Assembly: GCA_025617745.1 (NCBI GenBank) | Contig: CM046863.1 | Span: forward strand, 992,001-1,056,000 | Source: Heliocidaris erythrogramma | Lineage: Eukaryota > Echinodermata > Echinoidea > Camarodonta > Echinometridae | Length of the DNA: 64,000 nucleotides | Direction: 5' to 3' | Part shown: piece after piece, positions 7,371-57,439 of the stretch | Layout: each line of letters starts with the position of its first letter | Numbering within the stretch: position 1 is the stretch's first letter | Position numbers and translations under genes: made by a program | The notes under the pieces: model-generated | The model's input: only the letters and a program-made list of their open reading frames with translations | Databases searched by the model: none | Told to the model about the DNA's origin: nothing

Positions 7371-10300
7371 GTTTACCCAGTTTATGATATACACATCTTA
7401 CCCACATGGGTTCGTCCAGATTATTCCAATAATGATACCCACATTGGGGTTTACATATTTTAACATATGGGTTTGCCCAGGTCATTTCAAAATGACACCC
7501 ATTTGGACTTTGGAATATCATACTCATATGGACTTGCCCAGCTTACTCCCATATGAAACCCATATGGGCATTGACTTTTGTTTCCCCAGATGGGGTTGCC
7601 CAGCTTATTCCCCATGTGATATCCCTATGGGCATTCATATGTCTTTCCCCAGGGGTTTGCCCTGCTTATTCCCACATGATACCCATATGGGCATTTAGAT
7701 ATGTTTACCAGATGGGTTTGCCCAGCATATTCCCATGTGATATCCATGTGGGCATTTACATGTCATTTCCATATCGTTTTGCCCAGCATATTCCCATATG
7801 ATACCCATATGGGCATTTACAGTTGTTTCCCTAAATGGGGTTGCCCAGCTTATTCCCATGTGATATCCATGTGGGCATTCATATGTCTTTCCCATATGGG
7901 TTTGGCCAGCTTACTCCCATTTATTACCCATATGGGTATTGACATATATATCCCATTCGGGTTTGCCCAGCTAATTCCCACGTTATACCCGTGTGGACAT
8001 TTGCATGTCTTTCCCATATCGGTTTGCCCAGTTTATTCCCATGTAATATCCATATGCGCATTTACATGTCATTTCCATATCGGTTTGCCCAGCATATTCC
8101 CATATGATACCCATATGGGTATTTACAGTTGTTTCCCTAAATGGGGTTGCCCAGCTTATTCCCATGTGATATCCATGTGGGCATTCATATGTCTTTCCCA
8201 TATGGGTCTGGCCAGCTTACTCCCATTTATTACCCATATGGGCATTTACATGTCATTCCCATATCGGTTTGCCCAGTTTATTCCCATGTAATATCCATAT
8301 GCGCATTTACATGTCATTTCCATATCGGTTTGCCCAGCATATTCCCATATGATACCCATATGGGTATTTACAGTTGTTTCCCTAAATGGGGTTGCCCAGC
8401 TTATTCCCATGTGATATCCATGTGGGCATTCATATGTCTTTCCCATATGGGTCTGGCCAGCTTACTCCCATTATTACCCATATGAGTATCGACATATATA
8501 TCCCAGACGGGTTTGCCTAGCTTACTCCCATAAAGAACCCATATGGGCATTTACATGTCTTTCCCATTTGGGTTTGCCCAGTTTATTCCCATGTAATACC
8601 CATATGGGCATTTACATGTCATTCCCATATCGGTTTGCCCAGTTTATTCCCATGTAATATCCATATGGGCATTTACATGTCATTCCCATATCGGTTTGCC
8701 CAGCATATTCCCATATGATACCCATATGGGTATTTACAGTTGTTTCCCTAGATGGGGTTGCCAAGCTTATTCCCATGTGATATCCATGTGGGCTTTCATA
8801 TGTCTTTCCCATATTGGTTTGCCCAGTTTATTCCCATGTAATACCCATATGGGCATTTACATGTCATTCCCATATCGGTTTGTGCAGTTTATTTCCATGT
8901 AATACCCATATGTGCATTTACATGTCATTCCCATATCGGTTTGCCCATTTTATTCCCATATGATAGCCATTTGGGCAAATATATATGTTTCCCGGGTGGG
9001 TTTGCCCAGCTTATTCCCATATGATACCCATTTGGGCATTTACATGTCTTTCCCATTTGAGTTTGCCCAGCATATTCCCGTATGATTCCCATGTGGACAT
9101 TTGCATGTCTTTCCCATATTGGTTTGCCCAGTTTATTCCCATGTAATACCCATATGGGCATTTACATGTCATTCCCATATCGGTTTGCCCAGTTTCTTTC
9201 CATGTAGTACCCATATGTGCATTTACATGTCATTCCCATATCGGTTTGCCCATTTTATTCCCATATGATACCCATTTGGGCAAATATATATGTTTCCCAG
9301 ATGGGTTTGCCCAGCTTACTCCCATGTGATACCCATATGGGCATTTACATGTCTTTCCCATTTGGGTTTGCCCAGCATATTCCCATATGATACCCATATG
9401 GGCATTTACATGTCATTCCCATATCGGTTTGCCCAGTTTATTCCCATTTTATACCCATATGGGCATTTACATGCCATTCCCATATCGGTTTGCCCATTTT
9501 ATTCCCATATGATACCCATATGGGCAAATATATATGTTTCCCAGGTGGGTTTGCCCAGCTTATTCCCATATGATACCCATGTGGGCAAATATATATGTTT
9601 CCCAGATGGGTTTGCCCAGCTTACTCCCATGTGATACCCATATGGGCATTTACATGTCTTTCCCATATCGGTTTGCCCATTATATTCCCATATGATACCC
9701 ATATGGGCAAATATATATGTTTCCCAGGTGGGTTTGCCCAGCTTATTCCCATATGATACCCATGTTGGCAAATATATATGTTTCCCAGATGGGTTTGCCC
9801 AGCTTACTCCGATGTGATACCCATTTGGGCATTTACATGTCTTTCCCATTTGGGTTTGCCCAGCATATTCCCATATGATACCCATATGGGCATTTACATG
9901 TCATTCCCATATCGGTTTGCCCAGTTTATTCCCATTTTATACCCATATGGGCATTTACATGCAATTCCCATATCGGTTTGCCCATTTTATTCCCATATGA
10001 TACCCATATGGGCAAATATATATGTTTCCCAGGTGGGTTTGCCCAGCTTATTCCCATATGATACCCACGTGGGCAAATATATATGTTTCCCAGATGGGTT
10101 TGCCCAGCTTATTCCCATATAATACCCATTTTGGCAAAAATATATGTTTCCCAGATGGGTTTGCCCAGCTTACTCCGATGTGATACCCATTTGGGCATTT
10201 ACATGTCTTTCCAATATGGTTTTGCCCAGCTTATTCCCACATGATACCCATATGGGCATTTACAAATGTTTTCCCATATGGGTTTGCCCAGCTTATTCCC

Positions 10301-10699
10301 ACATGATATCCATAAGGGCATTTACATATGTTTCCCAGATGGTTTTGCCCAGCTTATTCCCATATGATACCCATATGCTCATTTGAATATGTTTCACAGA
10401 TGGGTTTGCCCAGCTTATTCCCATATGGTACCCATATGGGCATTTACAGATGTTTCCCAGATGGGTTTGCCCAGCTTATTCCCATATGATACCCATATGG
10501 GCATTTACATGTCATTCCCATATGGGTTTTCCCAGTCTTTTCCCATATGGTTCCCATATGGGCTGGCCCAAGTAGATCTCAAAATGGGTTAACCCATATG
10601 GGTCCCACAAGGGATACATATGGGATTTATATGGGTTCCCTTTTGCCCAGATGGCCCGGATGATGCCCATATGGGCCCCACATGGGCCTGTTACCTGGG
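7371..10699 (+). repeat. Right subterminal array of 61-bp units
   Basis: About fifty tandem copies of a 61-bp unit containing CCCATATGGGCATTTACATG, then TTCCCATATCGGTTTGCCCA, then a TTCCCATGTAATA-like part. Each unit therefore carries three related palindromic blocks spaced about 20 bp apart. Units differ by point changes and a few have an ATATATATG-TTTCCCAG variant. The array continues to the right terminus of the element. Confidence 0.9.
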
Positions 10700-11060: not shown

Positions 11061-11561
11061 AGTGGCGTAGCTAGAATCTAGCCATTGTGGGAGCACCATT
11101 GGAGACACAAGTCTTTTGGAATAATCTTAAAGCTAATCTAAGACGCCGCTGGTGGAAGAGGGTTGGGGGGGGGGGGGGTGCGGTTGCCGGAAGGGGTCCA
11201 ACCGTCTTCTTTCCTATTCCATTTTCTTTCTTTTTTTTTCTTATTTTTCGCCATCCGATGAGGGAGGGGTGGGGGCGTGCCCTCCATCCCCCCCCCCCCC
11301 CCCCCCCGTTGCTACACCTCTGCTCCTGATGAATTCGCCTTCTTTTACCGGGAATTATTAACCCTATTTCATTTTTCGGAAATACGAACCCTATTTCATT
11401 TTCGGAAATATGAACCTTATTTCATTTTCGGAAATACAAACCTTATTTAATTTTCGGAAATACGAACCCTATTTAATTTTCGGAAATATGAACCCTATTT
11501 CATTTTCGGAAATACGAACCCTTTTTCATTTTCGGAAATGCGAAACCTACGCTACGCCACT
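11061..11561. mobile_element. TIR element with 26-bp tandem core (copy A)
   Basis: Begins AGTGGCGTAGC and ends GCTACGCCACT, an 11-bp perfect terminal inverted repeat. The centre has poly-G and poly-C runs and about seven tandem units of 26 bp with the core TTTTCGGAAATACGAACC. The duplicate is at 12868-13360. Termini of this kind resemble hAT-type MITEs, but no 8-bp target duplication was found. Confidence 0.55.
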
Positions 11562-11577
11562 TACGACGGTGAACAAA

Positions 11578-11960
11578 TATCGATAAACATAGTTTTACGG
11601 TAAAACTATGTTTATCACTCGATAAACATAATTTTACGGTAAAACTATGTTTATCAATCGAAAATCTTAGTTTATCGAGTGATAAACAATGTTTTTCGCT
11701 CGATAAACATAGTTTTACCGTAAAACTATGTTTTTCGCTCGATAAACATAGTTTTAACGTAAAACTATGTTTATCACTCGATAAACATAGTTTTACCGAT
11801 AAACTCTGTTTATCACTTGAAAACCTTTGTTTATCGCTCGAAAAACAATGTTTTACCGAAAAACAGTGTTTATTGAGTGATAAACATAGTTTTTCTCGAA
11901 AAACATTGTTTTTCGATCCAAAAACATAGTTTATCGGTCGATAAACAGTGTTTATCGCCT
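11578..11960 (+). repeat. Palindromic GATAAACATAGTTTTAC array (copy 2)
   Basis: Head-to-head half-sites such as GATAAACATAGTTTTACGGT followed by its complement, with variants ending in TTTTTCG. The array ends about 145 bp before the duplicated exon 1 at 12105. Every adjacent pair of half-sites can fold into a short hairpin. Confidence 0.85.
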
Positions 11961-12867: not shown

Positions 12868-13360
12868 AGTGGCGTAGCTAGAATCTAGCCATTGTGGGAG
12901 CACCATTGGAGACACAAGTCTTTTGGAATAATCTTAAAGCTAATCTAAGACGCCGCTGGTGGAAGAGGGTTGGGGGGGGGTGCGGTTGCCGGAAGGGGTC
13001 CAACCGTCTTCTTTCCTATTCCATTTTCTTTCTTTTTTTTTCTTATTTTTCGCCATCCGATGAGGGAGGGGTGGGGGCGTGCCCTCCATCCCCCCCCCCC
13101 CCCCCCGTTGCTACACCTCTGCTCCTGATGAATTCGCCTTCTTTTACCGGGAATTATCAACCCTGTTTCATTTTTCGGAAATACGAACCCTATTTCATTT
13201 TCGGAAATACGAACCTTATTTCATTTTCGGAAATACAAACCTTATTTAATTTTCGGAAATACGAACCCTATTTCATTTTCGGAAATATGAACCCTATTTC
13301 ATTTTCGGAAATACGAACCCTTTTTCATTTTCGGAAATGCGAAACCTACGCTACGCCACT
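12868..13360. mobile_element. TIR element with 26-bp tandem core (copy B)
   Basis: Same structure as 11061-11561: AGTGGCGTAGC at one end, GCTACGCCACT at the other, poly-G and poly-C runs, and tandem TTTTCGGAAATACGAACC units. The poly-G run is shorter than in copy A. Confidence 0.55.
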
Positions 13361-13379
13361 TACGACGGTGAACAAATAA

Positions 13380-13795
13380 CTCTGCTTATCGATAAACATA
13401 GTTTTACGGTAAAACTATGTTTATCACTCGATAAACATAGTTTTACGGTAAAACTATGTTTATCAATCGAAAATCTTAGTTTATCGAGTGATAAACAATG
13501 TTTTTCGCTCGATAAACATAGTTTTACCGTAAAACTATGTTTTTCGCTCGATAAACATAGTTTTAACGTAAAACTATGTTTATCACTCGATAAACATAGT
13601 TTTACCGATAAACTCTGTTTATCACTTGAAAACCTTTGTTTATCGCTCGAAAAACAATGTTTTACCGAAAAACAGTGTTTATTGAGTGATAAACATAGTT
13701 TTTCTCGAAAAACATTGTTTTTCGATCCAAAAACATAGTTTATCGGTCGATAAACAGTGTTTATCGCCGAAAAACTGTGTTTATCGCCTTTATTG
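13380..13795 (+). repeat. Palindromic GATAAACATAGTTTTAC array (copy 3)
   Basis: Same array as 11578-11960 with one extra half-site pair near its right end. It ends about 140 bp upstream of exon 1 at 13934, where a promoter would be expected. Whether it acts on the gene cannot be told from sequence. Confidence 0.85.
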
Positions 13796-16970: not shown

Positions 16971-19840
16971 CCCCAAGTAACAGGCCCATGTGGGGCCAAT
17001 ATGGGCATCATCCGGGCCATCTGGTCCATCTGGGCCATCTGGGCAAAAGGGAACCCATATAAATCCCATATGTATCCCTTGTGGGACCCATATGGGTTAA
17101 CCCATTTTGAGATCTACTTGGGCCAGCCCATATGGGAACCATATGGGAAAAGACTGGGAAAACCCATATGGGAATGACATGTAAATGCCCATATGGGTAT
17201 CATATGGGAATAAGCTGGGCAAACCCATCTGGGAAACATCTGTAAATGCCCATATGGGTACCATATGGGAATAAGCTGGGCAAACCCATCTGTGAAACAT
17301 ATTCAAATGCGCATATGGGTATCATATGGGAATAAGCTGGGCAAAACCATCTGGGAAAACATTTGTAAATGCCCATATGGGTATCATATGGGAATAAGCT
17401 GGGCAAACCTATCTGGGAAACATATATATTTGCCCAAATGGGTATCATATGGGAATAAGCTGGGCAAACCCATCTGGGAAACATATATATTTACCCAAAT
17501 GGGTATCATGTGGGAATAAGCTGGGCAAAACCATATGGGAAAGACATGTAAATGCCCAAATGGGTATCACATCGGAGTAAGCTGGGCAAACCCATCTGGG
17601 AAACATATATTTTTGCCAAAATGGGTATTATATGGGAATAAGCTGGGCAAACCCATCTGGGAAACATATATATTTGCCCACATGGGTATCATATGGGAAT
17701 AAGCTGGGCAAACCCACCTGGGAAACATATATATTTGCCCATATGGGTATCATATGGGAATAAAATGGGAAAACCGATATGGGAATGGCATGTAAATACC
17801 CATATGGGTATAAAATGGGAATAAACTGGGCAAACCGATATGGGAATGACATGTAAATGCCCATATGGGTATCATATGGGAATATGCTGGGCAAACCCAA
17901 ATGGGAAAGACATGTAAAAGCCCAAATGGGTATCACATCGGAGTAAGCTGGGCAAACCCATCTGGGAAACATATATTTTTGCCAAAATGGGTATTATATG
18001 GGAATAAGCTGGGCAAACCCATCTGGGAAACATATATATTTGCCCATATGGGTATCATATGGGAATAAAATGGGCAAACCGATATGGGAATGACATGTAA
18101 ATGCCCATATGGGTATCATATGGGAATATGCTGGGCAAACCCAAATGGGAAAGACATGTAAATGCCCATATGGGTATCACATGGGAGTAAGCTGGGCAAA
18201 CCCATCTGGGAAACATATATATTTGCCCAAATGGGTATCATATGGGAATAAAATGGGCAAACCGATATGGGAATGACATGTAAATGCACATATGGGTACT
18301 ACATGGAAAGAAACTGGGCAAACCGATATGGGAATGACATGTAAATGCCCATATGGGTATTACATGGGAATAAACTGGGCAAACCAATATGGGAAAGACA
18401 TGCAAATGTCCACATAGGAATCATACGGGAATATGCTGGGCAAACCCAAATGGGAAAGACATGTAAATGCCCATATGGGTATTACATGGGAGTAAGCTGG
18501 GCAAACCCATCTGGGAAACATATATATTTGCCCAAATGGGTATCATATGGGAATAAGCTGGGCAAACCCACCTGGGAAACATATATATTTGCCCAAATGG
18601 ATATCATATGGGAATAAAATGGGCAAACCGATATGGGAATGACATGTAAATGCACATATGGGTATTACATGGAAATAAACTGGGCAAACCGATATGGGAA
18701 TGACATGTAAATGCCCATATGGGTATTACATGGGAATAAACTGGGCAAACCAATATGGGAAAGACATGCAAATGTCCACATGGGAATCATACGGGAATAT
18801 GCTGGGCAAACTCAAATGGGAAAGACATGTAAATGCCCATATGGGTATAACATGGGAATAAACTGGGCAAACCGATATGGGAATGACATGTAAATGCCCA
18901 TATGGGTATCATATGGGAATATGCTGGGCAAACCGATATGGGAATGACATGTAAATGCCCATATGGATATTACATGGGAATAAACTGGGCAAACCGATAT
19001 GGGAATGACATGTAAATGCCCATATGGGTACTTTATGGGAGTAAGCTAGGCAAACCCGTCTGGGATATATATATCAATACCCATATGGGTAATAAATGGG
19101 AGTAAGCTGGCCAAACCCATATGGGAAAGACATATGAATGCCCACATGGATATCACATGGGAATAAGCTGGGCAACCCCATTTAGGGAAACAACTGTAAA
19201 TACCCATATGGGTATCATATGGGAATATGCTGGGCAAACCGATATGGAAATGACATGTAGATGCGCATATGGATATTACATGGGAATAAACTGGGCAAAC
19301 CGATATGGGAAAGACATGCAAATGTCCACATGGGTATAACGTGGGAATTAGCTGGGCAAACCCAAATGGGATATATATGTCAATACCCATATGGGTAATA
19401 AATGGGAGTAAGCTGGCCAAACCCTGGGAAAGACATATGAATGCTCACATGGATATCACATGGGAATATGCTGGACAAACCCATCTGGGAAACATATCTA
19501 AATGCCCATATGGGTATCATGTGGGAATAAGCAGGGCAAACCCCTGGGGAAAGACATATGAATGCCCATAGAGATATCGCATAGGGAATAAGCTGGGCAA
19601 CCCCATCTGGGGAAACAAAAGTCAATGCCCATATGGGTTTCATATGGGAGTAAGCTGGGCAAGTCCATATGAGTATGATATTCCAAAGTCCAAATGGGTG
19701 TCATTTTGAAATGACCTGGGCAAACCCATATGTTAAAATATGTAAACCCCAATGTGGGTATCATTATTGGAATGATCTGGGCGAACCCATGTGGGTAAGA
19801 TGTGTATATCATAAACTGGGTAAACCCATATTCTTGAGGG
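16971..19840 (-). repeat. 61-bp unit array of copy 2
   Basis: About 47 tandem units of the same 61-bp repeat, in reverse orientation. The array shares unit variants with copy 1, for example the CAGTTGTTTCCCTAAATGG type. Confidence 0.9.
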
Positions 19841-30920: not shown

Positions 30921-31734
30921 CATAGAGATAACACGTAAACGAAAAACGGGATTCTCAAATCCCATTTTGTAGTGAAAAATTGGGCATGATCCCGACATCT
31001 GATAAAAAATTGGAGACCACACTTATAAAAGCTTGTAGTCTCAGCTATAACATACTAAAATCTGGAAGAAAATAGACCATAAACAACTGAGATGAAAAAC
31101 GGTGTTAACTGATTTTGTTGAAAATTGCCTCAGCTACAACATATTAAAATCTGGGCGAAAAACGATGCTAGACTGAAGATACATGTAGGAAGTCAAGAAT
31201 GCGACGCATGGAGATGCTTCTTGAGGACAGGAATGTAGAAAAATGTGTGAAACGGTCATTGGAAGATGTGATGATGTTGATGATAATCATCATGAATATC
31301 ATGACAGTGATGATGATAATGATGTTGATGATAATCATGATGATGATCATTATATCATGACAGTGATGATGATAATGATGTTGATGATAATCATGATGAC
31401 GATTATATCATGACAGTGATGATAATACTGATTTTGATGTTAATCATCATCATGATCATCATGAATATCATGACAGTAATGATGATAATAATGTTGATGA
31501 TAGTCATCATCATGAATATCATCATGACATTGATGATAATGATGTTGATGATAATCATGATGATCATTATATCATCATAGAGGTGATGATGATAATGAAG
31601 TTCATAATCATCAGCATCATCATGAATATCATGACAGTGATGATGATAATGATGTTGATGATAATCATCATCAAAAATATCATGACAGTGATGATAATGA
31701 TGGTGATGATATAATCATGATGATGATCATTATA

Positions 31735-31898
31735 CAAATGATGCACAGGTCTGAGTGGGTCGGTAGAATTGTTTGCATAAGGTAAATTTGAGCATGGTTT
31801 AAACACACGAGGCGCAGCCGAGTGTGTTTTAGACCAGGCCAAATTTACCGAATGCAAACAATTCTACCGACCCACGAAATAAATCTGTGCATCATCTG
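31735..31898. repeat. Long palindrome with conserved core, Crypton-like element end
   Basis: The arms start CAAATGATGCACAG and finish CTGTGCATCATCTG, with GGGTCGGTAGAATTGTTTGC paired to its complement, around a core at 31802-31829 that reads ACACACGAGGCGCAGCCGAG then TGTGTTT. The core is a short inverted repeat (ACACAC/GTGTGT) around a GC-rich spacer, the layout of a tyrosine-recombinase site. The same core is found at 36946-36976. Role inferred. Confidence 0.65.
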
Positions 31899-31954
31899 TT
31901 TTATAGAATGGGCGTACAGGATAAATGGCATTATTACTGGTATCATGCAACAAT

Positions 31955-32066
31955 TTACCGGCCAAATTTTACCGGACGCATGATCCAATTTACCGGACGC
32001 ATGATCCAATTTACCGGACGCATGATCCAATTTACCGGACGCATGATATCAATTTACTGGACACAT
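31955..32066. repeat. 21-bp tandem repeat beside the palindrome
   Basis: About five copies of a unit with ACCGGACGCATGATCCAA, ending in a diverged ACTGGACACATGA copy. It lies between the palindrome and the 3' end of the recombinase gene. It could be an accessory binding array; nothing in the sequence proves this. Confidence 0.75.
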
Positions 32067-32550
32067 GACACATATTGACTTGCTGCTCATGCCTGAAATG
32101 TAATGAATTATAAATAAATGAATGAATATTACACAAAACTGAAATTGTAGACATTCTATATCTACTTTCAGTTTTCTATGAGACTCTTGTGTGAAAACAA
32201 ACTGGACTAACCTTCTTTGGCAGATTTTGACATGCTGGGTCAAGATGCTTGTATCAATTCCAGCTTAAGCCGTAACACGTTGAACATGCACAGACTACAG
32301 TTTTTGGCATGCTGGGTCAAGATGCTTGTTCCAAGGTAGCTCAGTTTAATACATTGAACATATGTACAGTGCAGAGTACAGTTAAGCATTCACCTAGCTG
32401 ACATCATGCATTTAACAAACTAGTATAAACATGCTCACTTGTCACAAATGTTGAAAAAGCATTGTAAACTGGTGTAAAAGTCAAATTGTAGAACGCTGAA
32501 CATTTGTAACACTAACACATATACACGGTTTCTGCTTTCTGTTCTCAACG

Positions 32551-33972
32551 TTAATGATTATGAATATGTACCACACAATTGCTGATGTTGAAGCTATGTT
32601 TGGATGAATGTGTGGTATTACTCTGTGATGAAAGAGACAGAGACAGAGGAGATCGTTGAGCCTGCATTTCTGCTAGTGGAAGTCGAGTGTTAGTAGACGG
32701 TGATGCTGTTGCTAGCGGAAGTTGAGCGTTAGTAGTACTAGGCCTAGTAGTAGTAGACGGTGATGCTGCTCTCTGCTCGGTTTGCTGGTCACTCACAAGA
32801 ACACCGTCAACAATAGACTGTTGCTCGTCGCTGACATGTTGATCTGCAAAGGAAGACGAAGCCGATGTTCCAGCGAGACTAGAGTCATTAGAATTCAACT
32901 GGTGGTTGTACAGATGTTGTCCGATCTTCTTGCTCATTTCTTTCTTTCTTTGTTGACTGGTTTTTGTGTAGATCTTTATCGAGCTCTCACTTCGGTGACC
33001 ACTCACGGACATTATGTCCCTTGACTCAAACCCCGACTGATCTAGTGTAGTAACACAAGTTGCCCGTAGGCAATGATTTGTGTAAACTTTAGTACAGTTT
33101 GCACGAGTAGAGATGATCTTCATCTTGTCTGACAGAGTGTTAATACCGACTGGAGAGTTGTAGTACCAGGGGTCACTGTCATTTTGCGGCTGTGTAGGCT
33201 TGGGTTTCTGCCAAAACCATGGACATGCTGGATTGAGTTTTGACACATACTTCTCAAATGTTTTGACAGGGCATCTATCATTGTTAGGGATTTCAAACAT
33301 GATGCCTCCAGTAGCTTCATCATCCGTTTCTCTATGGTTTTTTGTTAGATGGTCACGCTTTTGAATATAACGTTTTCCATCTTCATCCACACAAACAGTG
33401 AAATCAGAAGCTTTGAAGAGGCGAACATTCTCTCTCCCTCTATTACAAAAGTAAGTCATAACATCAACAAATACCTTGTTCTGCAGTCCAGCAGGGATGC
33501 TGCAATCTAACTGGGCAGAAGTCTGTATCTTCTCCATGTCAGCCTGAGAAATTGCATCCTTGTGTTTAGTACTTCCTAAGCCTTCTTGCTTCAACTTCAC
33601 CAAAACTGCTTTGAACATCCTGACACTTTTGGGGAAAAGTGCATTCTTGCAAATGTCTACGTTACAGTTATCGAGGTAGTGACGCTGGATCCCGTAGCGA
33701 ATGTATTGCAGTGATTTCTTCGTGTACAATGAACCATCTCCCTTCCGCAGCGATGCATAGAATGATGTTAACAACGAGTCAAGATTTTCGTTCGTAATGT
33801 CTGTCAGATCAACATTTTTCAGTTTTGCGAAGCTCTCAAGCTTGCAAAATCCGAATTTTATTGATTTCTTTGTGCTAGTAGCGTCCGAATTTTCGATTAA
33901 TTCTTCTAATTCTCTGTCTGTTAACAGTTCAAATCGAGGCGCTCCTCGATCTCGCACAGCCGCGGTCGCCAT
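32551..33972 (-). CDS. Crypton-type tyrosine recombinase (DUF3504/KIAA1958-like)
   Basis: Intact single-exon gene of 473 codons, ATG at 33972. The N-terminal part (about 15-130) is helical and core-binding-like. The catalytic part (about 135-355) has CNRGREN (Arg178 or Arg180), HCLRAT (His300, Arg303), SGHRSES (His326) and the nucleophile Tyr335 in SSIKIYTKT, giving a full R-H-R-H-Y set. Lysines near 204-211 could supply the catalytic Lys. The tail (360-473) is Ser/Thr/Gln-rich and probably disordered. This family catalyses strand exchange through a phosphotyrosine bond and is the source of vertebrate KIAA1958, QRICH1 and ZMYM C-terminal domains. Host domestication is unlikely here because the gene sits in a recognisable, precisely bounded element. 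Confidence 0.88.
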   Translation of the reverse strand: MATAAVRDRGAPRFELLTDRELEELIENSDATSTKKSIKFGFCKLESFAKLKNVDLTDITNENLDSLLTSFYASLRKGDGSLYTKKSLQYIRYGIQRHYLDNCNVDICKNALFPKSVRMFKAVLVKLKQEGLGSTKHKDAISQADMEKIQTSAQLDCSIPAGLQNKVFVDVMTYFCNRGRENVRLFKASDFTVCVDEDGKRYIQKRDHLTKNHRETDDEATGGIMFEIPNNDRCPVKTFEKYVSKLNPACPWFWQKPKPTQPQNDSDPWYYNSPVGINTLSDKMKIISTRANCTKVYTNHCLRATCVTTLDQSGFESRDIMSVSGHRSESSIKIYTKTSQQRKKEMSKKIGQHLYNHQLNSNDSSLAGTSASSSFADQHVSDEQQSIVDGVLVSDQQTEQRAASPSTTTRPSTTNAQLPLATASPSTNTRLPLAEMQAQRSPLSLSLSSQSNTTHSSKHSFNISNCVVHIHNH

Positions 33973-34112
33973 GTTTGTTGTGAAAAATGATATCGATAGC
34001 GCATTAAAACTGATATCGTTCAGTATCGTTCATGCATCAGTAAAATCAATCGTCTGCTCGCGTTTGGCTCTTAACCAATCAGATTGCAGGGATTCTGAAA
34101 CCCATTCTATAA
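33973..34112 (-). promoter_or_regulatory. Upstream region of the recombinase gene
   Basis: 140 bp between the gene start and the element end. It contains overlapping ATCGTTCAGTATCG/ATCAG-type inverted motifs and GCTCTTAACCAATCAGATTG with a CCAAT box. A related CCAATCAAATGCAAGGATT segment is at the opposite end of the relative at 36796. Promoter role is inferred from position. Confidence 0.4.
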
Positions 34113-34867
34113 TATATCATGACAGTTACACCAGATGATGATAATGATGTTGATGATAATCATGATGATCATTATAATGATCATCATGACAGTGATGATA
34201 ATGATTTTGATGTTAATCATCATCATCATCATGAATATCATGACAGTGATGATGATAATGATGTTGATGATAATCATGATGATGATCATTATATCATCAT
34301 GACAGTAATGATGATAATGATGTTGTTAATCATCATTATCATCATCATCATGATGAATATGATGACAGTGATGATAATAATGTTGATGATAATCATGATG
34401 ATGATATAATGATGATGATGGTGATAATGATGATGATGATGGGGATAATGATGATGACCATGACTGCAATGACAGTGACCTTAACTATGCCAAATATAAA
34501 AGAGAAATCACATTTTGTTACGACCATAAGTTGATTTTTACGAAAAGGCGCCTGAATGACGTCACGACAATCTGATGACCTTGAAAAAGTTGCGGGAACT
34601 TGACCTTATTAGGACTGATGACTGACGAAAGAGCACTAGCACTATTTGACATTGCAGGATACTTGGGAGATAAACCCAATAGCTTTAATACACGACAGGG
34701 AATCACAATTTCCATAGGGTTGTACACAAACTACTGCACACTACTTTCCAATAGACAAAACACGCAGAATAAGGCAGTTTAGTACATGGTTTGTGATTGT
34801 ATATGATATAATAGTCGAAGAAGATGGTAAAATGAAAGGCAAAAAGAAGCAAAAAAAAATAAAAAAT

Positions 34868-34945
34868 TATGGACCCACCGGGGATCGAACCTGGGTCACC
34901 GGAATGAGAGGCAAGTGCTATAACCAATAGACCAAAATATTTCCC
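34868..34945 (-). repeat. tRNA-like SINE, copy 3
   Basis: Third copy of the SINE described at 29205-29275, nearly identical to copy 2. It belongs to the third segmental duplicate, which loses similarity to the others at about 34990. Confidence 0.6.
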
Positions 34946-34990
34946 ATAGAGATAACACGTAAACGAAAAACGGGATTCTCAAATCCCATT

Positions 34991-35875
34991 TTTCAATAAA
35001 AAACGACCAATAATTACGAATCTAGAGCCAAATTTGCATAAATGTGATGACGTGAAAACATGAAAAATGGAAATTTTGAATTCTGGCGCCATTTTGATGA
35101 CGTCATAATGTTTATAAGGGTCAAATGATACATGAAATGAAATCTATGATACCCTACCTGATGACAAAAAATTTGGGGGTTTGTGGACTATTTAAAGAGT
35201 TAGAGTTAATTTTGTAGAGGCATGTTTTTGCACGTATTGACGTTATTTTGGCCAGAGACGCGCGCACGGATTTTGAACTTTGACGCGCCCGTACGACCTT
35301 ATTATTGATTGGAATTGAATCCAAGTTGATGGAAATGATGAAGAAAAGTCTCAGGATTGCAAATCAATCGAAAAAACAGCGTTTTAAGTTTATTTACGAC
35401 TTGCGGGCGCGTAAAACGCGCGCGCGGACGCTTACGCACGGACATTTTTTAAATGCTCAAAATGACGTGAAAAGTGTGCAGACTTGATCCTGCGTGATTT
35501 TGAGCATTTTTAAATTTTGACGCGCGCGTACGCGCACGTCCTGACGTCTAGATGACCTGTGAGGACATGACTTGATGACCCGTCATGTGAAGTTTATGTG
35601 ATGTGAATATAGTTGATTTTTGATGATCGATTATGAAGATATAATCGATCTTGTAAATTTACAAAATGGCGTCTTGATGACGTCACGATGACCTGATAAC
35701 CTTCAAAAGCTTAGTTGACCATGTCCATGATTGACCTCATACATGACATGAAACTCGATGATATTGACCTGACCGATTTTGAGATTTGGTGGGAACAAAC
35801 ATTTGTAATAAAAAGAAATAAATAAATAAAGAAAGAAAAATCTTGACAAAATTAAAAGGAGGTCTATTATTACCC
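34991..35875. other. Non-coding stretch with CpG-rich clusters
   Basis: AT-rich background with CpG-dense islands (ACGCGCGCACGG, AAACGCGCGCGCGGACG, GACGCGCGCGTACGCG) and recurrent GATGACGTCA motifs. No convincing frame. The alternation of GACGCGCGC and TTTGA suggests another degenerate repeat. Confidence 0.4.
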
Positions 35876-35879
35876 TGGC

Positions 35880-36078
35880 TTTAGCTCCGGCAGCCGTAAT
35901 CAGCGCTAGTGCATTTCAAGGAATAAATCCCGCCAGGTACCCATTTACTACACCTGGGTGGAGAGTGGCAAATGCGGATTAATATCTTGCCAAAAGACAC
36001 TAGTGCCGGGCTGAGAATCGAACACTCGACCCAAGGGTTGAGAGTCAAGTGAATGAACCACTATACCACGACACCTCC
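35880..36078 (-). repeat. tRNA-derived SINE
   Basis: On the minus strand GGAGGTGTCGTGGTATAGTG begins a tRNA-like head with an A box (TGGTATAGTGG) and a B box (GTTCGATTC). A body containing CACCTGGGTGGAGAGTGG (plus strand) follows, of a kind widespread in marine invertebrate genomes. It is longer and better preserved than the SINE at 10730. Confidence 0.65.
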
Positions 36079-36795
36079 ACTAGTACAAATTCACCAGATA
36101 AAATTTCAGGAGTTGCCGAAAAGATACAAACTTGAGAAGTACAGAAAAACACAAAATCTAAAACATGGTGTTTACAAAGTATAAATGAACTGTCGTACAT
36201 GTATATGGTGATTTGTACATTTTGTTTGAGAAACAGATTGTTACTATGGCAACTAAACAATTTATGGAACTGATTGTGAACTATTTCATGAATATGTAAG
36301 ACCAAGACAATGATGTTTCATTTTGATTGAGGAAACAGTATATATGAGAGCACAGCCATTTATTATGAGTCAATTACATGTTTATTTCAGGAGGCATGCT
36401 AACAGAGTTGATGCTGTTCATAACTACCTAGAAGTTATAAGTGTATTTAAATTTAAATTAGACCATAAATTCAAAATAGACCAACACTGCGAGTTCACAA
36501 GACATGTTGTATATTCAATTATTATTTTTAAAAACCCCAACAATATTAAAAGGCATTATACAAACATACAAAATGGGGAATATATATCAAAATAGGTATA
36601 AAACCATATTAATAGTGCTGCAAAAACAGTAATATTACTATGGCAAGTGAATAACACAATGAAGAAAGGCCTACTTTTATTGTTTCGTAGGGAATAATAA
36701 ACAAATTACATTTCATTGTTTTACATTGCATAAACAGAGGATACATAATGTGAATTAGATAATGAGTCTTGTACTGCAGTTGCGGTGGTTAATTA
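36079..36795. other. AT-rich stretch with no recognised gene
   Basis: Only short frames. GTTACTATGGCAAC at 36240-36253 resembles an RFX X-box but has no gene attached that I can see. Confidence 0.4.
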
Positions 36796-36878
36796 GGGGA
36801 GCGTTCATCAAGTGTCTTGTCGGTGATTTTTACTGACAAATTCGCTCTCAGCCAATCAAATGCAAGGATTTCAGTATA

Positions 36879-37045
36879 CTGTTAATACATGGTTGGGAGT
36901 GTGTTAGTGCGATCCGGCAACACAAAGGTTTTTATCGTGGTGTACCTAACGCACGAGGCGTAGCCGAGTGTGTTAGACACCACGATAAAAACCTGCGTGT
37001 TGCCGGATCACACTAATGCACGACCTCACAACCATGTATTAACAG
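36879..37045. repeat. Palindrome with conserved core, second Crypton-like element
   Basis: Arms CTGTTAATACATGGTTG and CAACCATGTATTAACAG, with GATCCGGCAACAC and TTTTTATCGTGGTGT paired further in. The core CGAGGCGTAGCCGAGTGTGT differs by a single base from that at 31802-31829, although the arms are unrelated. Conservation restricted to the core points to function. Confidence 0.65.
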
Positions 37046-37329
37046 TTTTATAAAACGGGTCTACAATCTTAGTGCTTTCACTTACCTCAAACTGTCATGG
37101 CATGTCCCATGCGTGAATCCTGCTCAGCAAAACATGATGTAGACTAGTGTTGCAAACGTACAATGTTTATTTACAATGTTAGGCTAGCGCCTAGCCTAGT
37201 CTAGACCGTTGCGAACGTATATAGGCCTGCACATGTTTATTTACAATGTTTAGGCCTCGTCTTAGACCTATTTGTTAGTAATGTGTAGCCTAATGGAAGT
37301 GGTATTGAATCTGGTTCACCGATGTATTT

Positions 37330-37735
37330 TCACTCATGAGCTTGGCTGAGCATGTTCGAATTTGAGCTTATATTGAAGCCTGAAGATGAAGACAAGGTAC
37401 CACCAATGGCACTAAGACTAAGAGTATGACTAGTACCAGTACTAGCACTAGTAGGAACAGGACTAGTACTAGCACTAGTAGGAATAGGACTCGGAGTAGG
37501 AATCACTTGGCACAGTTGTGTTCTTTGTGTAGTCCGTTCCATCCGCTTTTCTGATATGCCTGCATAGAAATGGCTCAACATTAACAGCGTATCTTACTCA
37601 CCTTGCGTGATGGTGGATAGGTCCGTGCGACTGAGTTTAGCGAAACATTCAAGCTTTGAAAATCCAAATTTCACTGCTCTTTTCGTACTGTTGGAATCCT
37701 TCCTATCAGTAGATCGTCGAGTTCAGTTGTAAAAA
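37330..37735 (-). pseudogene. Recombinase remnant (N- and C-terminal ends only)
   Basis: Minus-strand frames give DSNSTKRAVKFGFSKLECF near 37640-37700, aligning with residues about 29-48 of the intact recombinase. A Ser/Pro-rich end containing GFNISSN near 37340-37380 resembles FNISN near residues 461-465. The whole catalytic region is missing, so this copy cannot recombine by itself. Confidence 0.7.
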
Positions 37736-37767
37736 TCACTGACAAGACAATAGATGAAATGCTCCCC

Positions 37768-38173
37768 TGAAGTTAAAGAGTTATAATACAAAGAACATTT
37801 AGAGTGTCTTGTTGAGATTGTTAGATTAGGTTTGTGGATTTTTTGGTTGTTTTTGTTCTTTGTGTTTTTGTTTTTGTTTATATTTGTCACCTACTGGTTT
37901 CCATATTGAAGCAATAAACCCCACGCAAGTCAATGGGACATCATTGACTGTCTTGTCTTTGTTGATGTGGCTTATAAACACAACGAAGACTAAATGTTGC
38001 TCAGTATTATTTGAAAGAGAGTATTAGTATATAAGTCAATCTAAGTATTTAGCGTTGTGGGTATTTGAGGGAATGAGAAAATGAGGTATTGAGAGAATGA
38101 AAAATGTATTTCATGAATACTTTGAGCAAATGAGGGGAAATAAAAACGTGAATTGTATTTTATATACACTAAT
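37768..38173. other. Stretch with no recognised feature
   Basis: AT-rich and TG/TTTTG-rich in part (37830-37890). No gene or repeat is recognised. Confidence 0.4.
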
Positions 38174-42990: not shown

Positions 42991-43879
42991 ATATTAGATT
43001 GAAAGTTGGATATTACACACACATGTATGGCGTAATGAAACATAAAACTGTGATTTACTCAAAATAATAGGTTGTGAAAACTACCAATATTTCGACGTTT
43101 TTCCTTGATTAAACATATCATGTATATTATCACACACAGAACGAAATTATCAGATAAGGTGATATAGATGACTCATTTTATGTTATCCCAAATGGAATGG
43201 AATGAGACTGCATACCCTTTTCCATGAATGGATGGATTAAGATTCAAAAAGATATTTTGAATACCATTCCTTTCTCATCATCATTTACCAATCCCCAAAC
43301 AAATACCGGTAAAGAGGTGAAAAACATGGCATTACACATTACAAGTTTAAGAGTAAAATAATTGCATTAAGTTGTTACACAGCCTTCAAATGGTACATCT
43401 TATCCCATTGTCAGTATGGAGCGACCCCAAAACAGAGTTTTATCTTTATCGGTACCCTTACTCAATCGGTACTTTGAAAGCCTTGATCAGAAGAGAAAAT
43501 AGCCATGTGGACTATGAACTGATTACATTTGTCAGATCTTTTTATTTTAAGATGAACGTAGCACTTGTAAAAAAAGAGAAAGAAATTTTAAAAAATGAAA
43601 ATCTTTGAAAAAAAGTTGTAACTTATTTTTTTGCTGTTTGCTGTGTGTGTTTGAGGGGGGGGGGGGGTTACTGGTTACGATGGGGCTGGAGAGGGACGAC
43701 AGGGGTGCATGTTTTCTTGCACCTGATTCCATCCAATGCCGGTAAATCGATTTCTTCGTTCCCTCGCTTCCCCTGTACCGGTATTTACCTTAATGTTCGT
43801 TCATGCATAAATTTCTTATTCAATAATAAAAAAAAGATATTAAGAAACAAAAGTTGTCATAATTGATCATGAATGGTTC
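42991..43879. other. AT-rich stretch with no recognised gene
   Basis: Contains a poly-G run near 43656-43668. Frames of 60-80 codons have no recognisable motif. Confidence 0.4.
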
Positions 43880-44594
43880 TAGGACTCCTAACCCCTGGAC
43901 AACCACCCCCCGGATAACCACCCCTAGGATAACCACCCTCTAGGACAACTACCCCCCAGGACAACTACCCCCTAGGGCAACCACCCTCTAGGACGACTAC
44001 CCCCCTAGGACAAGTACCCCCCGGATAACTACCCCCCAGACAACTACCCCCTAGGACAACCACCCTCTAGGATAACTACCCCCCGGACAACTACCCCCCG
44101 GACAACTACCCCCTGGACAACTACCCCCCGGACAACTACCCCCTGGACAACTACCCCCCGGACAACTACCCCCAGGGACAACTACCCCCCGACAACTACC
44201 CCCGGACAACCACCCCCTAGGATAACTACCCCCCGGACAACTACCCCCTAGGACAACTACGGGGGGTAGTTGTCCGGGGGGGTAGTTGTCCGGGGGTAGC
44301 TGTCCAGGGGGTAGTTGTCCGGGGGTAGTTGTCCCGGGGGTAGTTGTCCGGGGGGTAGTTGTCCGGGGGTAGTTGTCCGGGGGTAGTTGTCCTAGAGGGT
44401 GGTTGTCCTAGGGGGTTGTTGTCTGGGGGGTAGTTATCCGGGGGGTACTTGTCCTAGGGGGTAGTCGTCCTAGAGGGTGGTTGCCCTAGGGGGTAGTTGT
44501 CCTAGGGGTAGTTGTCCTAGGGGGTAGTTGTCCTAGAGGGTGGTTATCCTAGGGGTGGTTATCCGGGGGGTGGTTGTCCAGGGGGTAGGTGTCC
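43880..44594. repeat. Mirror-folded minisatellite (inverted duplication)
   Basis: The left half is about 25 units of GGACAACTACCCCC-type sequence; the right half is the complement (GGGGGTAGTTGTCC). The turn is at about 44260 with essentially no spacer. Variant units such as GACGACTACC, GACAAGTACC and CACCCTCTAGG appear in mirrored order on the right, so one half was copied from the other. C-runs on one strand and G-runs on the other could form a hairpin of about 350 bp or quadruplexes. Confidence 0.9.
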
Positions 44595-54960: not shown

Positions 54961-56830
54961 GAAAAAGAGTAAATATTAATACATTTGTAATGTATATGAT
55001 TATCTTCTCTTTTACAGGACATTCACTTATCATAACTTGTTTTAGTAAAGGGGTGATGGATGTGACCACTACATGTGTTGGCCGTTACCATGGTAACAAA
55101 TATATTTATTGTGTTGTACTTATAACAAAATACATGTACTATGGTTGTTTTCACCATGAAATAATGGTAAACATTTAATAATTTTTGCCGCCTGATTAAT
55201 TATATTCAAAATTTAAGTTTGGAATAGAGCTAAATTTGATTTATGAAAAAAATTGTTGCCATGAAAAGAGAATGTTAATGAAAATGACATCTTTCAACTA
55301 AAGAAAGAAATGTAACTAACCAATATAAAATGTATAGCAAGCAGATTATAACAAACACTGTCAGCCATTAGATCTGCTCGTTAGGTGTGAATGTGACCAC
55401 TATAACTGTTACTAAAAAGTGGTAGCTAATACAAAAAGTGGTGTTGTCTTTCTACCAGAATTTCTGTTTACTTGATTCAAATCAAGATCCAGAAGATTTT
55501 TGTCGCCAGTAAAATGGGTAATACCAAAATTTTCGCCTTGAACATGATGACAAGACCTGCTACTTGATTCATTCACAATTGAATTTATATATTTATGTAT
55601 GTTTTGGATCATGGTCCTGATGTAACAGGATTAAACAATAAGGTAGGGCATAAATTGGTAACAATATTTATAAGAAAATACAAGTAATATAGGCACATAA
55701 TAAAAAAACTAACTTAACAAGTAAAAGCACCAATAATAAACGGCTATGAATATTTCAAAAATAACAAATTGAGTATATTATGTAATGCGAAGCCTAATGT
55801 GGAACGTGGATAACATCCGTGTACTAATGAGACTACATGATTTAAAAAAAAACCCACATGACCCGTATTAGATAAATACCCCGTACATAGTTCCTGTTAC
55901 TTTGTGGATTGTCATCTAAAATAAGAACCGAAAAACGTCAGAGTACTTTTAAAATTTATTTTTGAAAGTCACACAAAGATCATATACATACATATATCGA
56001 TGGTATTCATTAAGGTTAGCTGGCAACCAAATACGGTATAATCAAAGATTTAGTGTTGATGTAGAGTGTAGCGACTTAAAATCAAGAGTTTGCAAGGAAT
56101 CAATATTTAAGACCAGGGTAGCAAAGCGTCTCGTGGGGGGGGGTGGCACGGTGGGGGTAAAGTAGACACCAGCAGAAAACGAACTACTGGGGGAAAGGGG
56201 CATTAACAGAAAAGACAACTTTTAGGGGAAAGGGAAAGGCATAAATAGAAACGTTAAAGTGAATACATAAGTTTTAGTCATGATATATACCCTACATTTC
56301 AGGACAGATTCAAATAATCCTATTTGTTTCTCTCTTTACATCACAGTGTTCAGTTAAGTGAGAGGGTCTGTGATGGTCTGCATATTCATTTAATTTCCAA
56401 GCAAGCATAATAGCGGGCTGTGACATCCAATGGTGGATCTAAGGGGGGGGCCTTTGGCGGAGCTTTTTAAAAAGTATTCATGATAGGAATCTAGGACTTC
56501 GGCTCCATATTTTGGTGGCAGAGGCCCTTCGCTTATCACTCTTTCACATCGAGACTTCGAGACCCCCCCCCCCCCCCCACCCCCTTTTTGAAAAATCCTG
56601 GATCCGTGGTGACATCAGATTCTCATGGAGAGGAAAAGGTCATCCTAGTGGGGTTCAAAGTACAATGTCATCATGAAAAATAATTTACCGATGAGCCTGA
56701 GTCTGGGTGCCATCGATTACCGATAAACCTTTGTGAACGACGACATCATCATTTTTTTTTTGGGGGGGGGGGGGCGCAGGTGCAGAAGCAAATAATAGAA
56801 TAATCTATTTTGAACCTGTTTCAACCGTGA
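54961..56830. other. Intergenic stretch with no recognised gene
   Basis: AT-rich with a G-rich part at 56130-56170, mixed G and C runs at 56440-56590 and a T/G run before the gap. A perfect X-box-like palindrome is at 55084. No exon with credible splice sites was recognised. Confidence 0.45.
55084..55097. promoter_or_regulatory. Perfect RFX X-box-like palindrome
   Basis: GTTACCATGGTAAC matches the X-box consensus exactly on both strands. No start codon or exon is recognised nearby, so a regulatory role is only possible. Confidence 0.3.
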
Positions 56831-57330
56831 NNNNNNNNNNNNNNNNNNNNNNNNNNNNNNNNNNNNNNNNNNNNNNNNNNNNNNNNNNNNNNNNNNNNNN
56901 NNNNNNNNNNNNNNNNNNNNNNNNNNNNNNNNNNNNNNNNNNNNNNNNNNNNNNNNNNNNNNNNNNNNNNNNNNNNNNNNNNNNNNNNNNNNNNNNNNNN
57001 NNNNNNNNNNNNNNNNNNNNNNNNNNNNNNNNNNNNNNNNNNNNNNNNNNNNNNNNNNNNNNNNNNNNNNNNNNNNNNNNNNNNNNNNNNNNNNNNNNNN
57101 NNNNNNNNNNNNNNNNNNNNNNNNNNNNNNNNNNNNNNNNNNNNNNNNNNNNNNNNNNNNNNNNNNNNNNNNNNNNNNNNNNNNNNNNNNNNNNNNNNNN
57201 NNNNNNNNNNNNNNNNNNNNNNNNNNNNNNNNNNNNNNNNNNNNNNNNNNNNNNNNNNNNNNNNNNNNNNNNNNNNNNNNNNNNNNNNNNNNNNNNNNNN
57301 NNNNNNNNNNNNNNNNNNNNNNNNNNNNNN
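56831..57330. other. Assembly gap of exactly 500 Ns
   Basis: A run of 500 N, a size suggesting a fixed placeholder and not a measured distance. The true sequence between 56830 and 57331, including possible upstream parts of the THAP gene region, is unknown. Confidence 0.98.
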
Positions 57331-57439
57331 TTCATTAAGGGGTAATTAAAAATTTACATATCGTAACAAAATCCCACTCATTCAGGCATTAATAAGCAAT
57401 TTCAATCAACTTTGAGGGACATGTGTCGTCCGCTAGCGT

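Follow-up and report, generated by a model that had tools for sequence, protein, structure and literature searches.

Crypton-like elements of Heliocidaris erythrogramma with a palindromic end complementary to both termini

Two Crypton-like loci in the window

The window analysed here is a 64,000-nucleotide stretch of the sea urchin Heliocidaris erythrogramma (contig CM046863.1, positions 992,001 to 1,056,000; G000:C11:992001-1056000), and everything reported below comes from this one genome of 1.06 Gb in 26 contigs. Two loci in the window, termed W1 and W2, carry a long palindrome together with tyrosine recombinase sequence. W1 is a complete Crypton-like element with an intact open reading frame (ORF), located at 31731..34112 with its gene on the minus strand. 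Its boundaries were defined by end alignments and by copies with unrelated flanks, namely L032 and L033, which were 99.5% and 97.8% identical across 31731-34112. An initial annotation had placed a palindrome and a minus-strand recombinase at 31735-34112; both features were confirmed, and the limits were set to 31731-34112. The left end of W1 reads TATAC and the right end CTATAA. The element consists of the palindrome, then TTTTATAGAATGGG, the minus-strand recombinase ORF and a closing region ACCAATCAG...CCCATTCTATAA, of which CCCATTCTATAA (34101..34112, plus strand) is the right end in copies and end alignments. A CCAAT motif (34075..34079, plus strand) lies close to the right end and upstream of where the recombinase gene starts.

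The recombinase ORF (32551..33972, minus strand) encodes 473 amino acids and was assigned by profile matches to PF12012 (DUF3504; 8.8e-11) and PF00589 (phage integrase; 5.2e-7), by alignment and by a structural model. In an alignment of 43 sequences, R178, H300, R303 and H326 were kept at 90% or more and Y335 was invariant. W1 thus has the tyrosine recombinase ORF with catalytic R-H-R-(H)-Y residues expected of a Crypton, the catalytic role being that known for the family. The model had a mean predicted local distance difference test (pLDDT) score of 76.6 and a predicted template modeling (pTM) score of 0.62. It was matched by Foldseek to QRICH1, Cre, XerA and, lower, the integron integrase 2a3v (IntI), with modest template modeling (TM) scores of at most ~0.46. 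Among the 120 of 129 matches listed, the named relatives came from echinoderms, molluscs and hemichordates and included proteins of sea urchin, sea star, brittle star, oyster, mussel and acorn worm. A recombinase pattern matched 12 stretches in viral_contigs, and 0 were confirmed by tblastn. The recombinase was the only ORF of at least 120 amino acids in 31731-34112. No reverse transcriptase or DDE transposase was found in W1 among ORFs of this size searched with Pfam, shorter fragments not being searched.

The W1 palindrome was predicted by DNA folding and family comparison to form a left-end terminal hairpin with a complementary 3' arm (31731..31912, plus strand). Its inverted arms lie at 31755-31813/31817-31875 (81%). 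As single-stranded DNA it folded at -62.4 kcal/mol (z -14.4), which was matched by 0 of 200 shuffles, and the z values on the two strands were -14.4/-14.5. The tip (31806..31824, plus strand) reads CAC-GA-GGC-GCA-GCC-GA-GTG, with a GNA triloop at 31814-31816. The segment that follows the hairpin is the reverse complement of the right end; in W1 it is TTATAGAATGGG (31901..31912, plus strand), the portion of the 3' arm that resembles an internal complementary region (ICR), as seen in the sequence and in the joined-end fold described below. Between the hairpin and the recombinase lies a 21-bp iteron, TTTACCGGACGCATGATCCAA, in 4.8 copies (31968..32068, plus strand), and ACCGGACGCATGG-like iterons were seen in related subfamilies. 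The iterons at 31968-32068 are possible accessory binding sites.

W2 is a right-truncated copy of a second family (type B) at 36875..37724 on the minus strand, delimited by 39 other scored copies and by copies extending past its break. Its terminal hairpin (36875..37059, plus strand; DNA fold) has its tip core at 36954-36970 and TTATAAAACGGG at 37048-37059, and folded as single-stranded DNA at -71.9 kcal/mol with z values of -17.1/-15.3 on the two strands. Only a short recombinase remnant is kept. The right side is broken inside the gene, where other copies run on, and the right end is lost. The reported likeness of the two palindrome cores was borne out, as these were the only two sites in the 64 kb at up to 3 mismatches (shuffle mean 0.02).

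The initial annotation had given the second element the limits 36796-37767, with a CCAAT region on the opposite side of the palindrome from that in W1. It had read the pair as two permuted orders of a single circle that had been opened at different points. A genome search with the query 36780-37785 yielded 6185 first-look candidates, of which 40 copies, W2 counted in, were scored. Of the 39 others, 35 started at query 92-98 (window 36871-36877), the earliest main match started at query 79 (36858), and none spanned 36780-36857, the stretch that holds the CCAAT motif. The limits were therefore replaced by 36875-37724. The sequence at 36796..36874, containing CCAATCAAATGCAAGG, is the left part of a host miniature inverted-repeat transposable element (MITE), with a terminal inverted repeat and the CCAAT stretch, and lies outside the Crypton; the right part of the MITE is at 37725..37768 (30-nt arms, 90%). 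The terminal inverted repeats, considered as W2's own ends, were rejected since they belong to the MITE. A search for the host MITE scored 40 places, again with W2 among them. We read 13 copies of the host MITE and 12 of a related MITE, and 24 of these 25 hold an uninterrupted TTTCAGTAGCTT, L182 being different. L166, ~54 kb from W2, has the same right flank as W2 without the insertion. Two of the 39 copies, C13:14708527, which starts at query 79, and C7:45076077, which has a separate neighbouring match to query 16-60, may be further insertions into the host MITE.

The CCAAT-like stretches that flank the two palindromes on opposite sides, and had suggested the permuted circle, are thus alike in letters and are not the same part of one element. 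W2 is nested in a MITE that has uninterrupted copies, flanks vary among copies (86 flank-distinct left ends), and the right-end motif was seen directly left of a palindrome only at tandem insertions. The permuted circle is refuted for W2 and has practically no chance of being correct. The CCAATCARAT-like stretch is common to the host MITE (36796-36874) and the W1 right end (34067-34112), possibly through chance, convergence or old capture.

Conservation of the terminal hairpin

The 20-bp core CGAGGCGNAGCCGAGTG occurred 457 times exactly in the genome, twice in the window, and the reversed pattern 0 times. At the 70 core places inspected by eye (30 + 40), it formed the tip of a palindrome from one of a few families, with a damaged arm at some places (e.g. 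L020, L025, L077 and L088). In several Crypton families this palindrome forms the left terminus. In gene-bearing copies where a hairpin was found, it lies 3' of the gene. In viral_contigs, 24 stretches contained the core with 0-8 of 16 flanking positions paired, which was taken as chance.

For a sample selected on the recombinase, we used 47 loci, comprising L031-L060 and 17 further genes with 37-52% identity to W1, which were chosen out of 97 matches for family spread. For the 17 genes, 1.55 kb on the 3' side was retrieved while the ends were still unknown. The tip scheme stem-GA-stem-GNA-stem-GA-stem was found in 24 of the 47 loci with an outer stem of at least 3 bp, counting whole loci and both strands. 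With an outer stem of at least 4 bp in the 3' region it was found in 19 of 47, 17 in one orientation and 2 flipped. The remaining ones of 48 mismatch/loop classes tallied gave 0 or 1, save TC/TNC, which are the same sites on the opposite strand. Within the window, the scheme matched at the two palindrome sites only. The inner stems differed in sequence and length (GGC/GCC, GCC/GGC, AGCGC/GCGCT, GGGGC/GCCCC) around constant GA, GA and GNA, and all four bases were present at the middle position of GNA among the inspected cores. Tandem sheared G·A pairs are stable. GNA trinucleotide loops are described as exceptionally stable DNA minihairpins in the excerpted text of PMC6479982, citing Yoshizawa 1997. 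The unusual shape of the hairpin is retained although its letters vary. In L005, L044, L045 and L139 the tip was flipped relative to the arms, as though the centre of the palindrome had been inverted, and the L045 tip was altered as well.

Mismatches in the arms were counted on the strand antisense to the gene. The 17 family hairpins gave 110 purine·purine, 35 pyrimidine·pyrimidine and 45 mixed mismatches, and 11 less related hairpins gave 68, 21 and 31. Because neutral decay would equalise purine·purine and pyrimidine·pyrimidine mismatches, the purine excess indicates a strand bias. By eye, the same alignments showed a 3' arm that is longer by one to five bases close to the outer G·A position. 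In the 10 most similar family pairs (identity at least 0.75), stem changes were paired in 72 cases, broken in 23 and one-sided G·T in 14. This covariation was weighted below the conserved mismatches, because the pairs are not independent, sharing sequences with one another, and arm conversion may yield paired changes.

Element ends, insertion sites and the complementary 3' arm

TATAC started 83 of the 86 flank-distinct left ends, in a count that was anchored on the inner arm, so that degenerate copies fell out. The preferred left flank was A-Y-A-R, giving an insertion preference of AYAR^TA. Right ends were accepted only with CAAT at most 45 bases upstream, and 57 were kept. Of these, 4 adjoined the left end of another element in head-to-tail tandem insertions; among the other 53, the right flank began with TA in 27 (T 0.70, A 0.68). 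Exact A-type tandem junctions occurred 6 times genome-wide, against 421 exact A-type left ends. CCAAT or ATTGG was found 38-48 bp off the right end in all 10 distant loci whose right end was identified. The table of elements with both ends had 37 rows, of which L031 duplicates W1 and L007 duplicates L006, and lengths in it ranged from 312 to 2382 bp; the script behind it looked for a single order only, so that permuted copies would go uncounted by it. The five shortest copies (312-323 bp) retained the hairpin and the right end.

Filled and empty sites were compared directly, with a slash marking each element boundary. At L079/L170 the filled site reads TTTCAG/TATACAGATG...CCCATTCTATAA/TAGCTTATAACAG and the empty MITE site TTTCAGTAGCTTATAACAG, or in short TTTCAG/TATAC...CTATAA/TAGCTT against TTTCAG^TAGCTT. 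L034 in the related MITE reads AATTTCAG/TATAC...CTATAA/TAGCTTATAACAG. Zero bases were duplicated or lost, and insertion was between adjacent bases. The target site duplication of DDE transposons with terminal inverted repeats was thus absent from the filled and empty sites and from the flank statistics. A TA duplication, with which the L079 site alone is compatible, was rejected on account of the near-universal TA at the left against 27/53 in the right flanks. Three insertions of different families (W2, L034 and L079) were seen at the same TTTCAG^TAGC site of the two related MITEs.

The hairpin 3' arm can pair with the left end and, further along, with the right end, which lies 0.3-2.4 kb away. 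For 8 loci, right ends were predicted in writing from the left pieces alone, prior to retrieval of the right pieces, and 7 of the 8 were found, in full for L127, L128, L130, L134 and L138, with 11/12 bases for L129 and with 12/13 for L135. Matches of at least 10 bases between left and right pieces occurred within the same locus in 10/17 cases and across loci in 14/272, of which 12 join sister families (by our grouping) and the others pair L132 with L136 and L138 with L133. When the two ends were joined by script, they lengthened the hairpin without a break, apart from a few unpaired bases at the crossover. This held for 12 of 12 families, chosen by us among those with both ends in hand. The suggestion in the initial annotation that joined ends would extend the palindrome therefore stands, for W1 with CCCATTCTATAA as the reverse complement of 31901-31912.

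Other repeats were also seen in the window. A 61-bp satellite (CCCATATGGG) forms two long arrays of opposite orientation (7396-10563 and 17126-19800). At 43879-44260 / 44262-44594, a 15-bp tandem array switches strand at a single point, so that two inverted arrays stand back to back. Neighbouring 26-bp and 39-bp arrays occur as a duplicated pair (11360-11912 and 13159-13785), and 56805-57345 is a run of N that yields ORFs of X.

Models of recombination and relation to known systems

We interpret both loci as Crypton-type tyrosine-recombinase DNA transposons in which the palindrome is the left half of the recombination site and acts as a folded strand, a reading to which we give a probability of about 0.6. 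The idea of the palindrome as a recombination site had been raised before; its conserved terminal position and the end-joining that extends it agree with this idea, and the two permuted orders do not survive. On the antisense strand of the recombinase gene, the left end would fold into a hairpin of ~180 nt. In most of the closely examined families this hairpin would have a GNA triloop, a few additional bases on its 3' side and, at fixed positions, tandem G·A mismatches. Its 3' arm would pair with both ends and hold the left and right end side by side. End joining by the recombinase would take place on this same strand, as ...YTATAA^TATAC... in the W1 and W2 families. The resulting circle, or circle-like intermediate, would be inserted between two adjacent bases, preferably at AYAR^TA. 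One strand would be exchanged and replication would complete the process, as with integron cassettes. The pairing of the joined ends fits a recombination site and a circular intermediate. The anatomy and its conservation, the strand bias, the ends, the target preference and the empty sites are observed directly, and from them we infer formation of the hairpin in vivo, action of the recombinase on it, exchange of one strand and existence of a circle.

Several observations weigh against this interpretation. The tip is not universal, as family E (L046, L049, L050) has a different loop, family F (L052, L053, L056, L057, L059, L140) has a GCA loop without GA pairs, L138 is without GNA, the L132 tip is degenerate, L125 and L137 have other palindromes, and L133 and L136 gave no strong hairpin within the piece retrieved. 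The core was altered or lost in the gene-bearing copies L034, L037, L038 and L045. Energy models of the whole hairpin rated both strands near equal, and ordinary window segments may fold strongly too, with 5 of 35 at or below -60 kcal/mol against 10 of 17 distant loci. The P values for the mismatches (3e-10 and 6e-7) assume independence of sites, which does not fully hold. Over all family pairs above 0.62 identity, stem changes were paired in 270 cases, broken in 244 and G·T in 68, and below 0.62, where the alignment is unreliable, the values were 843, 1590 and 306. Arm-to-arm conversion can keep long palindromes complementary, so that paired changes alone are no proof of folding. The right end predicted for L126 was absent from 601 bases. 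All of the evidence is drawn from the assembled sequence of a single genome.

The main rival is duplex recombination, in which the terminal inverted sequences would be bound in double-stranded form and two strands exchanged, the palindrome being an accessory binding array or a cruciform. This is the default for tyrosine recombinases, covariation of the right end with the site that follows the hairpin could arise from binding of both by one enzyme, and the iterons beside the hairpin resemble accessory sites. However, the strand bias of the mismatches and the orientation of the GNA/GA tip (17/19) have no evident role in a duplex. Duplex exchange by tyrosine recombinases is staggered, and with a target unlike the circle core variable junctions are expected, as a heterologous overlap should blur them, whereas the junctions here are precise to the base. 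We favour the folded single strand because the junctions are near-invariant and because the hairpin combines the integron and DIRS layouts, and we regard duplex recombination as unlikely.

Quite improbable is a hairpin that serves a single-stranded circular form as its origin of replication, or of the second strand, instead of as a recombination site. Such an origin would be strand-specific and would also account for the amplification of short copies, and short hairpins with GNA loops, which are very stable, are found at phage replication origins. Yet a crossover in the stem base and a 3' arm that pairs with both ends are needless for an origin, although the two roles may coexist. A role in RNA at the recombinase 3' end, as a terminator, RNA hairpin or trigger of double-stranded RNA, would agree with the position of the hairpin 3' of the gene and with the stability of tandem G·A mismatches in RNA as well, but it is a far-fetched explanation given that GNA/GA is antisense to the gene in 17/19 loci, that the hairpin starts at the integration boundary and that its arm matches the distant right end.

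To our knowledge, the way in which animal Cryptons move has not been tested. A circular intermediate was proposed for Cryptons (Goodwin et al., cited in PMC3212892), and animal Cryptons were reported to lack terminal repeats as far as found (Kojima and Jurka 2011, PMC3212892), in each case according to the excerpted text of that paper. The words "hairpin" and "palindrome" are absent from its main text. No description of such a hairpin end site or of the core letters was found in the open-licence library searched, subscription papers and Repbase notes lying outside it. As far as the excerpt extends, the present elements are like CryptonA in having a single tyrosine recombinase ORF with DUF3504, no other enzyme found, and short non-autonomous derivatives. 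They differ in their defined ends, conserved hairpin and right end complementary to the 3' arm. The terminal hairpin and the inverted repeat of the right end after it depart from the absence of terminal repeats, which we take as an addition to the description of animal Cryptons and not as an exclusion from them.

Integron integrases use one folded strand, and replication possibly resolves the intermediate (PMC3053210, in part). The attC site recognised by IntI is likewise an imperfect palindrome of variable sequence with unpaired bases that mark one strand. Unlike attC, the W1/W2 hairpins are without the GTTRRRY core; on inspection the ends read TATAA and TATAC in place of the boxes GTTRRRY / RYYYAAC. 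They also sit in an element that encodes its own recombinase and have a GNA/GA tip that is not described for attC in the excerpted PMC3053210, and the use of one strand is here a deduction. A further likeness is to the strand-biased circularizing elements (SE) of Vibrio, tyrosine-recombinase elements for which one-strand end joining is reported, which differ in being bacterial and in having two recombinases, with no hairpin site described in the excerpt of PMC9345347.

In DIRS1-like elements, internal complementary regions match both termini and insertion occurs without duplication (PMC3266345, in part). W1 shares an internal segment complementary to both termini (joined ends in 12/12 families, right-end match in 10/17 loci), which would be able to align a circle, and the lack of target duplication. 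It differs in that neither reverse transcriptase nor RNase H was found among its ORFs of at least 120 amino acids by Pfam, in that the segment joins the left end as a long hairpin and not the 3' end, and in that its core is not the 3-bp junction of DIRS1, as far as the excerpt describes it. These comparisons tentatively suggest, at slightly short of an even chance, a eukaryotic tyrosine-recombinase transposon that recombines via a folded single strand and has a DIRS-like complementary arm together with an attC-like site whose shape (GNA triloop, tandem G·A mismatches) is what the enzyme recognises. For animal Crypton-type elements, the analysis supplies precise termini, a preferred target, empty sites and a site architecture open to testing, and a strand-specific site recognised by shape would, if true, be a lead for tools. 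If the folded-strand reading holds, Cryptons would be single-strand movers, the integron trick would exist in eukaryotes too, and a DNA transposon may have set the precedent for the DIRS internal complementary region, with Cryptons a plausible source of the DIRS circle mechanism that predates reverse transcriptase.

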